From assembly GCA_905479875.1 (NCBI GenBank), contig CAJQOG010000113.1, forward strand, positions 1 through 39,739: 39,739 bases of DNA. Direction: 5' to 3'. Both the position numbers and the translations under genes were made by a program. This DNA comes from an uncultured Gammaproteobacteria bacterium (lineage in GTDB: Bacteria; Pseudomonadota; Gammaproteobacteria; Steroidobacterales; JABDMI01). Positions 22,589 through 30,356 of this stretch are shown piece after piece. Numbering within the stretch: the stretch's first letter is position 1; each line of letters opens with the position of its first letter. The notes under the pieces are model-generated. The model was not told the origin of the DNA and did no database searches. It was given only the letters and a program-made list of their open reading frames with translations.

Positions 22589-23014
22589 TTAACGCGGGCA
22601 AAGCTCTGTAGCTGAGAAAAAATACGCAGCTTCGATTGCTGCATTTTCAACACTATCAGAACCATGCACTGCGTTTGCATCAATACTTTCAGCAAAGTCT
22701 GCACGAATTGTTCCAGCATCAGCTTCTTTCGGATTAGTTGCGCCCATAAGGTCACGATTCACTTGCATCGCATTTTCGCCTTCCAATACTTGAATCATTA
22801 CTGGTCCAGAAGTCATAAACTCAACTAAATCCTTAAAGAAAGGTCGTTCACTATGTACCGCATAGAAACCTTCAGCTTCTTTTTTGCTTAAGTGCTTCAT
22901 TTTTGCAGCTACAACTTTTAAGCCAGCTTTTTCAAAACGAGCATAGATTTCGCCGATTACATTTTTTGCTACAGCGTCAGGTTTAATGATTGAAATAGTA
23001 CGTTCTACAGACAT
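22589..23014 (-). CDS. ndk: Nucleoside diphosphate kinase
   Basis: [23 protein letters not shown] ... [20 protein letters not shown]. Start set to ATG 23014 (GGAGACATCATG) instead of the ORF-track start at 23095. Confidence 0.95.
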
Positions 23015-23310: not shown

Positions 23311-23646
23311 CTAGATACTAAAACTCTCGCCACATCCGCACTCGCCTTTAACTTTAGGGTTACGGAATTGGAAAGACTCATTTAACCCCTGTTTAACAAA
23401 ATCAATTTCTGTACCTGCTAGATAGCTAATACTCTCTTGGTTTACAAAAATTTTAACGCCTCGGTCTTCAAAAACTTTATCTTCATCAGAGGCTTTTGAA
23501 GCAATATTAACAACGTAAGCATAGCCATTACAGCCTGTTTTCTTAACCCCTAAACGCAAGCCAATGCTATCGACTTCTTGTTGCATAAAGCCTAAAACAC
23601 GTTCTGCGGCGGCTGGTGTTAGAGTAATTGGTTCTTGATTTTGCAT
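23311..23646 (-). CDS. iscA: A-type iron-sulfur cluster assembly protein IscA
   Basis: ITLTPAAAERV ... GVKKTGCNGYAYVV ... GECGCGESFSI with three conserved Cys. Confidence 0.9.
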   Translation of the reverse strand: MQNQEPITLTPAAAERVLGFMQQEVDSIGLRLGVKKTGCNGYAYVVNIASKASDEDKVFEDRGVKIFVNQESISYLAGTEIDFVKQGLNESFQFRNPKVKGECGCGESFSI

Positions 23647-23715: not shown

Positions 23716-24069
23716 CTAGCCAGTTGATAATCCCATCCAAGCATCTTCCAACTTAATTAATACGTTCATATACGGATATGGCATATTTAATTGTTGGCGC
23801 AAGCTTTCGGCATCAAAAGCCTGGCCAATACTTAAATTTCCATCTGCAACTAAGCGAGCCAAGGTTTCAACCGCTGCAATTGCATAAGGACTTCCGTAAA
23901 CCTTATAGTAAAGCTTGGTAGCGTTGCAATCAAAATACAACGCAAACCACACGCCATGTGGACGCGCTCCAGCCTGAGAGTGCTGTAACAAGTCTAAAGA
24001 AATATTATTTGGTAAAACAAACTGAGGATGCATAAAAGCATTCTCAACAAGAGCGTTATATTCAAGCAT
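23716..24069 (-). CDS. IscU/NifU-N-like protein lacking the canonical cluster-ligand cysteines
   Basis: KLYYKVYGSPYAIAAVETLARLVADGNLSIGQAFDAESLRQQL lines up with IscU [43 protein letters not shown]; lies between iscS and iscA where iscU is expected. Confidence 0.75.
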   Translation of the reverse strand: MLEYNALVENAFMHPQFVLPNNISLDLLQHSQAGARPHGVWFALYFDCNATKLYYKVYGSPYAIAAVETLARLVADGNLSIGQAFDAESLRQQLNMPYPYMNVLIKLEDAWMGLSTG

Positions 24070-24094: not shown

Positions 24095-25303
24095 TTAAGC
24101 TGCAAAAGCTCGTATTCGTTTCACTTGCTGATGAATCACTTCGATAGCTCTATCAATGTCTGATTCGCTCGTGAAGCGTCCTATACTAAAACGTATAGAA
24201 CTTTGTGCTGCTTGATCATCACGCCCCAAAGCACGTAATACATAGGATGGTTCTGCATTCGCTGAAGTGCAAGCAGACCCAGAAGAAACTGCCAGTTCTG
24301 ATAAAGCGTAAAGAAGACTCTCTCCTTCTATGCCTTCAAAACTGACATTCAAAATTCCTGCAACTTGTTGAGCTTTACCATCTTCTCTATAAATTTCATC
24401 AAACCCATTGAGTTGCACTCCACCTAAGGGTTTAATGCTTGACCATAACTTTTCACGTAAATTTGAGATGTGTAAACTATCACTTTCAAGTTCAGCTTGA
24501 GCTAATGCAAAAGCCTCACCCATACCAACAATCTGATGAGTCGCTAAGGTTCCGGAGCGTAGACCAGATTCATGACCGCCTCCATGTATCATCGGCTCAA
24601 CTTGAACGCGCTGAGTTTCTCGTACATACAAAACACCAATGCCTTTAGGACCATAAATTTTGTGTCCTGAGAAAGACATCAAATCAACTGGTGTTTTACT
24701 TACATCAATGGCAATTTTCCCAGCACTTTGGGCCGCATCAACATGAAAAACTATATCTCTATCAGAACAAATTTGAGCAATAGCCTCAATATCTTGGACC
24801 ACTCCAATTTCATTATTTACATGCATTATTGAAACCAGAACGGTATCTTCTCTCAAAGCATCGTTCAATTGTTGCATACAAATTTGCCCATTACACTCAG
24901 GAGTCAGATAAGTAACCTCATAGCCTTCTTTTTCTAAAAATTTACAGGTATCAAGAACAGCTTTGTGTTCAGTGCGACAAGTAACAATATGTTTACGTTC
25001 AGTTACCTGCTTAGTATTAGGATCAACTTTGGTGTGGTAATGCGCAACACCTTTTAAAGCTAAGTTATTAGATTCAGTTGCGCCTGATGTCCAGATTATT
25101 TCCTCTGGCTTGGCATTAATTAAAGCAGATACCTGGCGCCTAGCCACTTCCACTTTTCCACGCGCTTCACGCCCGAGATGATGGCTGCTTGACGCAGGGT
25201 TTGCAAAACAGCCCTCATTGGTCATGCAGTCCACCATTTTTTCAGCAACTCGTTTGTCAACTGGTGTTGTGGCGGCATAATCTAAGTAAATGGTTTTATT
25301 CAT
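24095..25303 (-). CDS. iscS: Cysteine desulfurase IscS
   Basis: [57 protein letters not shown]. Confidence 0.95.
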
Positions 25304-25394: not shown

Positions 25395-26189
25395 TTAATC
25401 GATTTTTTTCGATAAGCTCTTTATTTTATTCTCAATTGATGTAAATATCCCTTGGATAATATTGACTTCTTTGTGTTCTAACTGTGCTTTGTAAACTACT
25501 CGCTTTAGTTTGCGCAGCATGTACTGGGGGTCTTGTTGAAATAAGAATTCAGCCTTTGCCAACACGCTTTCTAAGCGTTGAAATAAAAAATTCAATTCAC
25601 CTGCTGTAGCAGGTTTATCAGCAGATACGGCTTTTTCGATAGAATTAACAATATTATCAACTTTTCTATCACACTCAAGAGCCGTGCAACGTATTTGATA
25701 AGCAAACACTTGAACTGCCATTGCCAAATTTAATGAACTGTACTCAGGATTGGCATCAATACAGGCATGATACTGGCAATGCGCCAATTCTTCATTAGTA
25801 AGTCCCGTTCTTTCCCTTCCAAACACCATTGCAACTGGGTATTGTTTTGCTGTCTCTACTATTAACTTAGCAGCTTCCTGCGGATCAAGCATGGGCCACG
25901 GCATAGTACGTGAGCGAGCGCTGGAACCAATAACCAAAGTACACTCATCAATGGCAGAGCTCAGGTCTGCAACATTATGCGCAGACGCCACAATATCGGT
26001 GGCTCCTGAGGCTAAGGCACAGGCATCACCTTGTACAGCTGAATACTCACAAGGTTCTACCAAACGTAGATCAGACAGGCCCATGGTTTTCATAGCTCTG
26101 GCTGCAGAGCCTATATTTCCAGCATGACTGGTTCCGACTAATACCACTCGAACGTTCTTTAAGACGCTTTTTAAATTAAATTCCGACAC
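25395..26189 (-). CDS. trmJ: tRNA (Cm32/Um32) methyltransferase TrmJ
   Basis: VRVVLVGTSHAGNIGSAARAMKTMGL, VFGRERTGLTNEEL; divergent from suhB. Confidence 0.93.
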   Translation of the reverse strand: MSEFNLKSVLKNVRVVLVGTSHAGNIGSAARAMKTMGLSDLRLVEPCEYSAVQGDACALASGATDIVASAHNVADLSSAIDECTLVIGSSARSRTMPWPMLDPQEAAKLIVETAKQYPVAMVFGRERTGLTNEELAHCQYHACIDANPEYSSLNLAMAVQVFAYQIRCTALECDRKVDNIVNSIEKAVSADKPATAGELNFLFQRLESVLAKAEFLFQQDPQYMLRKLKRVVYKAQLEHKEVNIIQGIFTSIENKIKSLSKKID

Positions 26190-28217: not shown

Positions 28218-30356
28218 ATGGATAAACCACTCTATAACCCACAACGAAAAGTAACAACCATCATGGCTGCCGATGTGGTTGATTATAGCCGTCTAATGGG
28301 AGAAAACGATAATACAACTTTACGTAATTTAAAGATACGTCGTGTGGCTTTTGAACACTTTGTTAAATCTTTTGGTGGACGAGTATTTGGTACAGTTGGC
28401 GATAGCTTTATGGCTGAGTTCCCAAGTGCGTTAAACAGTGTTCGCTGTGCCATTAATCTACAAGAAGCCATACGTCAATTGAATATCGAATTACCCGAAA
28501 AGCAGCGAATGCGTTTACGCATTGGCTTGAACTTAGGTGATGTGATACAACAAGGCTCTGACTTATTTGGAGACGGCGTAAATATTGCGTCTCGGATTGA
28601 ACCATTGTCTGACCCAGGCGGCGTATGCCTTGCCGGTAATGTATATGAACAAGTCCACAGAAAATTAGATTTACACTACCATTTTCTAGGCGCGCAAAAA
28701 GTTAAAAACATTGATATGCCAATTACAGCGTTTAAAGTACTTGGACATGCTGCAGCCCAATCGTCTGGCTTGAGCGACTTTAGTCGCGCCATTAGAATTA
28801 ATCAGGGCTTTCGCTATCAGCTTTTATTAATTGTGGTACTAGCATTAATTGCTGCAAACAAAATTACCGGATTAATTAGTAGCCAAGCTTATAGTTATAT
28901 AGCACAAGTCCTTATTGTCACTATTGCAGCAGTTGTTAGTTTTACACTCTATAAAAAAATTCAAGCTCCAGTATCCAACAAAGCACCCGAACAAATTCTA
29001 GATAAAAATCTTCTTGAGATCTCACTCATTTTAATTAGAAGTAAAAGTTTAGCTAAAAACATTAATGATAAACCAGCTCAAAAAAAACTTATCCCCAGTA
29101 TAGCCATTTTACGTTTTTCAGATTTGAGCCCAGAAAGCGATCAAGGATATTTTTCTGATGGATTGAGTGAAGAATTAATCAATGTACTTACTAAAGTAAA
29201 TAACTTAAACGTGAGTTCACGTAATTCGTCTTTTGCACACAATCCTGATGTAATAAATTCTCAAAACTTTGCAAAACGTTTAGGCACAGATTACTTCATA
29301 GAAGGCACCGTTCGTAAAGCCGAAAATCGTGTTCGTATTAACGTACAACTTATAGAAACCGAAAGCAACTTAAATCTATGGTCTGATTCTTACGACCGGG
29401 TCTTGAAAGATATTTTCGAGATACAGGATGATATCTCGCAAAGAATTGCAGAAGCACTTAGCGTGCAATTCACTACCGACCTAGACAGAAACTCCTTAAC
29501 TACTGATTCTCGCGCCTATGATTTTTATTTACGTGGACGAGCTTTTTTTATGCATAAAGGGATAGAGAACATTCGCTCTGCCATTCAAATGTATACCATG
29601 GCCTTCAAACTAGACCCTAACTTCATCAGAGCCGGTACTAATTTAGCAGAAACTTATGCAATTCAAGCAATTTTCTATGATGGTGGCGATGAGTCGTTAG
29701 ACAATGCCAAGTTTTTTGCCAATAAAATACTATTACTGGCACCAGAACGTGCAGAAACCTATGTTGCATTGGGAATGACTCATTTAGCTCACAAAGAGCA
29801 TATCCTTGCTGCTGGGCGGTTTGAAAAAGCTATCAGTATTAATTCTAATTTATTTGAAGCTCAACATAACTATGCACGTGTACATTACCATCAAGGCAAT
29901 CTGAAAGAAGCAATTATGCATTTTGAAAAAGCCGCAGAGATTGAAAAAAGTGATTTTGAAAGTTATGCAATTGCTGCACCACTCTATACAGCCTTAGGTC
30001 AAAATGAAAATGCCTTAAGCACTTACCGAAAAGCCTTTGACAGAATTTCTAAATACATAGAACATTACCCTGAAAACCAACGCGCTTTTCAATTTGGAGC
30101 CATTGCTTTGTTAAAACTTGATGAAAGAAAAAAAGCATATGAATGGGCTGAACAAGCGCTTGATATGAATAAAGATGAACCTGCAACACTTTACAATACT
30201 GCGTGTTTTTATGCACAAGCCGGTGAAATTGAAAAATCACTAGACTGCTTGTCAAATTCAATTACCTCACTAAGTTGGATTGAAAATGATCCTGAATTAG
30301 ATCCCATACGTGAACACCCACGCTACAAAGAAATTATTGCCAAGCTTAGTTCTTAG
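28218..30356 (+). CDS. Class III adenylate/guanylate cyclase domain, two TM segments, TolB/FlgO-like domain and TPR repeats
   Basis: MAADVVDYSRLMGEND, GTVGDSFMAEFPSA, GDGVNIASRIEPL; hydrophobic LLLIVVLALIAA and IAQVLIVTIAAVVSFTLY; SIAILRFSDLSPESDQGYFSDGLSEELIN; C-terminal TPRs. Confidence 0.88.
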   Translation: MDKPLYNPQRKVTTIMAADVVDYSRLMGENDNTTLRNLKIRRVAFEHFVKSFGGRVFGTVGDSFMAEFPSALNSVRCAINLQEAIRQLNIELPEKQRMRLRIGLNLGDVIQQGSDLFGDGVNIASRIEPLSDPGGVCLAGNVYEQVHRKLDLHYHFLGAQKVKNIDMPITAFKVLGHAAAQSSGLSDFSRAIRINQGFRYQLLLIVVLALIAANKITGLISSQAYSYIAQVLIVTIAAVVSFTLYKKIQAPVSNKAPEQILDKNLLEISLILIRSKSLAKNINDKPAQKKLIPSIAILRFSDLSPESDQGYFSDGLSEELINVLTKVNNLNVSSRNSSFAHNPDVINSQNFAKRLGTDYFIEGTVRKAENRVRINVQLIETESNLNLWSDSYDRVLKDIFEIQDDISQRIAEALSVQFTTDLDRNSLTTDSRAYDFYLRGRAFFMHKGIENIRSAIQMYTMAFKLDPNFIRAGTNLAETYAIQAIFYDGGDESLDNAKFFANKILLLAPERAETYVALGMTHLAHKEHILAAGRFEKAISINSNLFEAQHNYARVHYHQGNLKEAIMHFEKAAEIEKSDFESYAIAAPLYTALGQNENALSTYRKAFDRISKYIEHYPENQRAFQFGAIALLKLDERKKAYEWAEQALDMNKDEPATLYNTACFYAQAGEIEKSLDCLSNSITSLSWIENDPELDPIREHPRYKEIIAKLSS

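Follow-up and report, generated by a model that had tools for sequence, protein, structure and literature searches.

In E. coli, the C-terminal tail of the cysteine desulfurase IscS is part of the docking surface for IscU, through helix 12 (R379-K391), and IscS without residues 376-404 does not bind IscU, and reversing the charge of IscU K103 also prevents binding to IscS (PMC2854127). The R220/R223/R225 patch of IscS binds CyaY, IscX and TusA (IscS contact sites are from PMC2854127 and PMC11302665). IscU binding does not depend on the tail in every case, since the IscS of A. fulgidus, an archaeal and much more distant protein of 382 aa that is tail-less like the one described here, shares a structure entry with an IscU homologue (NifU-1/IscU; PDB 4EB5). 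In B. subtilis, the desulfurase YrvO transfers sulfur to MnmA without Tus proteins (PMC5372745), and the mutual exclusion of the ISC and SUF systems in Gammaproteobacteria is already known (PMC10631705).

The locus analyzed here lies in a 39,739-nucleotide stretch of DNA (contig CAJQOG010000113.1, hereafter the window) from an uncultured gammaproteobacterium of the order Steroidobacterales. Its gene order is trmJ - iscS - X - iscA - ndk - rlmN, with the following features:

25395 to 26189, minus strand: trmJ, upstream of iscS
24095 to 25303, minus strand: iscS, an IscS-family cysteine desulfurase of 402 aa with intact catalytic residues and without the C-terminal IscU-docking tail
24095 to 24170, minus strand: 3' end of iscS, where the 21 residues past E. 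coli position 383 are absent
23716 to 24069, minus strand: gene for protein X, IscU-derived, 117 aa, beginning 25 nt after iscS
23311 to 23646, minus strand: iscA/sufA-type gene, third in what remains of the isc operon, for an A-type carrier whose CGCG motif is intact
22589 to 23014, minus strand: ndk, the next gene after iscA

Since trmJ stands upstream as it does in E. coli (trmJ-iscR-iscS-iscU-iscA), the locus was taken to be the isc operon at its original site, minus iscR; hscB, hscA, fdx and iscX were not found between iscA and ndk. The locus is best read as what is left of the isc operon after remodelling. Its IscS resembles that of the E. coli ISC system in family, in catalytic residues and in position after trmJ and before iscU/iscA, but differs from it in having no 384-404 tail and in the erosion of the TusA, CyaY/ThiI and IscU contacts.

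Assignment of the window protein to the IscS family was supported by the presence of the PLP lysine K206, Cys328, H104, D180 and Q183 and by a score above the cut-off of the IscS model NF010611 (563.7 versus 548 bits), although it fell under that of the stricter model TIGR02006 (555.5 versus 643.2 bits). The tail was missing from this protein and order-wide. Alignment with E. coli IscS spans E. coli residues 3 to 382, placing the end of the protein at about E. coli position 383, and the match to the NCBIfam IscS model reaches position 385 of 406. Total length was rejected as a sign of a complete IscS, because it comes near the 404 residues of the E. coli protein only through two internal insertions, VDPNTKQVT after residue 92 and IYREDGKA after residue 294. 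A frameshift or misassembly hiding the tail was also rejected: none of the reading frames in the 25 nt from the end of iscS to the start of the next gene encodes a tail-like peptide, the IscS of two independent congeneric assemblies (L031 and L032) ends identically in ...RIRAFAA, and the tail-less end is shared at the level of the order, with at most 4 of the 21 tail identities in every non-fused IscS of the order, whereas tailed IscS proteins all have 10 or more. The original prediction had claimed the loss of the tail and ascribed a part in IscU binding to the missing region; the first claim is borne out by the ORF end, the alignment, the model match and the congeneric assemblies, and the second by the helix 12 and deletion data cited above. 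The frameshift that it had named as a possible refutation was not found in the downstream frames or in the congeneric assemblies.

The family profile of protein X matched PDB IscU with E=2.2e-25 and SufU more weakly (E about 2e-6), and 17 of 18 family members matched NifU_N; the window X itself had no NifU_N match and scored above cut-off against no Pfam or NCBIfam model. As judged by these comparisons, X is an IscU homologue over its full length, and the IscU fold likewise rests on sequence, given that an AlphaFold model made without an alignment was of low confidence (pLDDT 46). The possibility that X is a SufU was rejected, as X is closer to IscU and a separate Cys-bearing SufU is encoded in the suf operon on contig 115. 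The homology to IscU and NifU_N is not matched by the ligands of a scaffold: in alignment with E. coli IscU, the positions of C37, D39, C63, K103, H105 and C106 are occupied in the window X by H, V, S, Y, N and V, respectively. Its single cysteine (residue 48) lies off any ligand position and is replaced by S or Q in congeners. Compared with E. coli and human IscU, X thus shares full-length homology and Y3, and in most relatives also K103 and C63, but differs in the loss of C37, D39, H105 and C106 and in its fusion to IscS in some lineages. Without these four residues, X is not expected to bind a cluster in the way of IscU.

In a sample of 90 IscS loci from the order, the tail was absent from all 90 and an IscU-like neighbour or fused domain was present in 89, and IscS was kept in 112 of 114 well-complete genomes. 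C37 was gone from every IscU-like protein of the order, whereas C63, in a GCPH motif, was kept in 81/89 and K103 in 77/89; C106, with H105 in some, persisted in few (L033, L037, L040, L041 and L050), and the window genus has lost C63, K103, H105 and C106 altogether. L037, L040, L041 and L050 combine retention of C63 and C106 (and of H105 in L037, L041 and L050) with loss of C37, and are possible snapshots of scaffold decay. At 13 loci, spread over several families of the order, the IscU-like domain was fused to IscS (L056:1150-2667 and L057:1171-2655, both on the minus strand, and L058, L059, L064, L074, L085, L087, L102, L112, L114, L117 and L118). The N-terminal helix of the fused domain was mostly missing, and one fused protein aligned in one piece across the adjacent iscS-iscU of E. 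coli. A plasmid search for fused relatives returned only ordinary iscS-iscU of other bacteria, and literature searches confined to open-licence papers turned up no account of either the fusion or the pseudo-scaffold. Because most relatives keep K103 and 13 loci carry a fusion, the IscS-IscU partnership has not been lost. The loss of the tail reflects loss of the scaffold cycle, and not necessarily of IscS binding.

These data also bear on the suggestion that IscS has no dedicated partners and now acts as a general sulfur hub, with X a dispensable fossil held in place by operon structure. Of the genes in the operon, X is indeed the one that has diverged furthest (77% identical between congeners, versus 92% for IscS), and every known functional residue has been lost from it in the window genus. 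We nevertheless find this explanation very doubtful, in view of the near-universal retention of X, its fusion to IscS and the purifying selection on it indicated by a dN/dS of about 0.1, a rough value with dS near saturation, on which X was also rejected as a pseudogene.

The relationship between the tail and IscU was next compared class-wide, in 184 gammaproteobacterial genomes searched with curated models and their cut-offs. IscU was above cut-off in 78 of the 82 genomes with a tailed IscS versus none of the 36 with a tail-less or partially tailed one (Fisher p = 3e-26, a value that exaggerates the evidence, given the relatedness of the genomes). Among loci read base by base, all ligands (C37, D39, C63, H105 and C106) were kept in 21/21 IscU proteins beside a tailed IscS versus 0/108 beside a tail-less IscS (0/89 neighbours in the order and 0/19 elsewhere). 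The four tailed exceptions were as follows: in G175 and G303 IscU fell just under the cut-off with all ligands present (L174 and L159), in G176 it was matched in two pieces inside a longer frame, and in G306 (L154) an isc operon with iscR, iscA, hscB and hscA was present and iscU was missing from the assembly. In the last of these, a genome that is 95% complete, there was no iscU between iscS and iscA (L154:2998-6966) nor elsewhere, which may be an assembly deletion. A tail-less IscS beside a ligand-less IscU is therefore a trait of a large gammaproteobacterial clade, and not of the window genome alone. Tail loss does track the ligand-less gene in relatives, the check that had been proposed for this locus. 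The coincidence of tail loss with a "Cys-less" IscU-like neighbour holds as to co-occurrence and replacement of the ligands, but not literally, given the cysteine at residue 48 of X; and the finding named as refuting, tail-less IscS being common alongside a normal IscU, was not seen in the class, where none of the 36 genomes had an IscU above cut-off, although tail-less desulfurases with an IscU exist outside the group (PDB 4EB5).

The tail is not the only docking element to have decayed. While H104, D180, Q183, K206 and C328 were 100% conserved, the TusA contact W45 and L333, near the Cys loop, each went from 100% to 0% in the order, and among the IscU contacts M315 dropped from 100% to 1% and E347 from 100% to 15%. 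The R220/R223/R225 patch was eroded. Judging from these residues, IscS of the window clade has lost its docking residues for TusA, CyaY/ThiI and IscU while keeping the catalytic ones.

When IscS trees were computed with the tail columns removed, a single branch (SH-aLRT 93 and 96) separated tailed from tail-less proteins. E. coli IscS nested among the class's own sequences, which identifies the class sampled as Gammaproteobacteria. Since human NFS1, which has a full tail, groups with the tailed proteins, the ancestral IscS probably had the tail, which was later lost. Partial tails (L122, L126, L135 and L149) occurred only beside ligand-less IscU, and SPIWDVVKKK (L122) and SPVWETVK (L126) are possible remnants of the tail. 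Because there is a single split on the tree, the correlation between tail and ligands is essentially one evolutionary event, so that the association is one old event with later erosion and not repeated co-evolution. The co-evolution away from IscS-IscU cluster assembly that the original prediction had proposed is thus retained in part: the suf operon and the lack of HscA fit such a shift, but it took place essentially once, and the partnership persists. The single split would also suit a neutral C-terminal shortening unrelated to IscU, in which the two traits simply travelled together down one clade, as would the tail-less desulfurase solved with IscU elsewhere (PDB 4EB5). We consider this quite unlikely, as M315, E347 and L333 decayed in the same proteins and partial tails are confined to the neighbourhood of ligand-less IscU.

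Gene content was compared in 60 genomes of the order, the window genome being 89% complete and all absences referring to draft assemblies. SUF was present in 59/60; in the window genome, contig 115 carries sufB, sufC, sufD, sufS and the Cys-bearing sufU in a suf operon, and the gene after sufU looks, by eye, like sufT. MnmA was found in 58/60, including the window genome, and TusA above cut-off in 11/60, not including it. ThiI was found in none of the 60, nor was HscA above cut-off, its sub-cut-off matches probably being DnaK. The window genome therefore differs from the E. coli ISC arrangement in having SUF and no HscA, and cluster assembly is presumably carried out by SUF.

It is conceivable, but we think rather unlikely, that IscS, X and IscA make up a pared-down ISC system serving a small number of targets or stress conditions, in which X presents sulfur to IscA. 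The retention of iscA with an intact CGCG in the operon of nearly all relatives would agree with this, as would the four loci in which C63 and C106 persist, accompanied by H105 in three. Conversely, C37, D39 and mostly H105/C106 are lost and none of 108 neighbours has all ligands, HscA is gone, SUF is present, and A-type carriers serve SUF too.

The explanation that we favor, and hold to be reasonably probable, is that of a remodelled ISC remnant, in which SUF took over and IscS with its IscU-derived partner was kept for another sulfur client, most likely MnmA. Once SUF had taken over iron-sulfur cluster assembly, the scaffold cycle (the IscU ligands, HscA, IscR and the IscS tail) would have decayed, with IscS keeping its catalytic residues and X remaining as its partner. 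X would most likely dock at the former IscU site as an accessory subunit or sulfur-transfer adaptor, not as a scaffold for clusters. The one cysteine that X still has in most relatives (IscU C63) could accept the persulfide there; in the window genus the loss of C63 means that there is no relay through that residue, which would leave a structural or regulatory role. With K103 also gone from X there, and with X changing faster than iscS, docking in the manner of IscU may no longer apply in that genus.

The main client is most likely MnmA, which makes 2-thiouridine at tRNA U34, with sulfur passing directly or via X. We infer this client, as we do the X binding site and the loss of scaffold activity; MnmA is pointed to because it is near-universal, ThiI is absent, TusA is mostly absent and the TusA-docking residues are lost, and on the same gene content a redirection of IscS to tRNA thiolation, as the original prediction had suggested, is plausible and has more behind it than the sequence alone could show. 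YrvO-MnmA of B. subtilis is the proposed parallel, in that a desulfurase feeds MnmA without a Tus relay, but the YrvO gene lies next to mnmA, and no IscU-like partner of YrvO is known. In the present case iscS and the MnmA gene are not adjacent, which counts against the link, SufS-SufU could be an alternative sulfur feed for MnmA, and the TusA-family genes in 11 of 60 genomes count against a Tus-free supply. More tentatively, we speculate that the IscS-IscU pair of the clade is a dedicated tRNA-thiolation donor in which the ligand-less, sometimes fused IscU replaces the TusA relay, a scaffold turned sulfur-transfer adaptor.

The locus probably shows what becomes of the IscS hub once SUF assembles clusters, with the docking surfaces for IscU, TusA and CyaY lost and the catalytic core and a decayed IscU remaining. 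It also offers a testable answer as to how sulfur for 2-thiouridine could be supplied in Gram-negatives with neither TusA nor ThiI, and the natural iscS-iscU-like fusions are material for testing that route. Near the isc remnant, positions 28218 to 30356 of the window encode a 712-aa protein whose N-terminal region is cyclase-like and whose C-terminal part carries TPR repeats.
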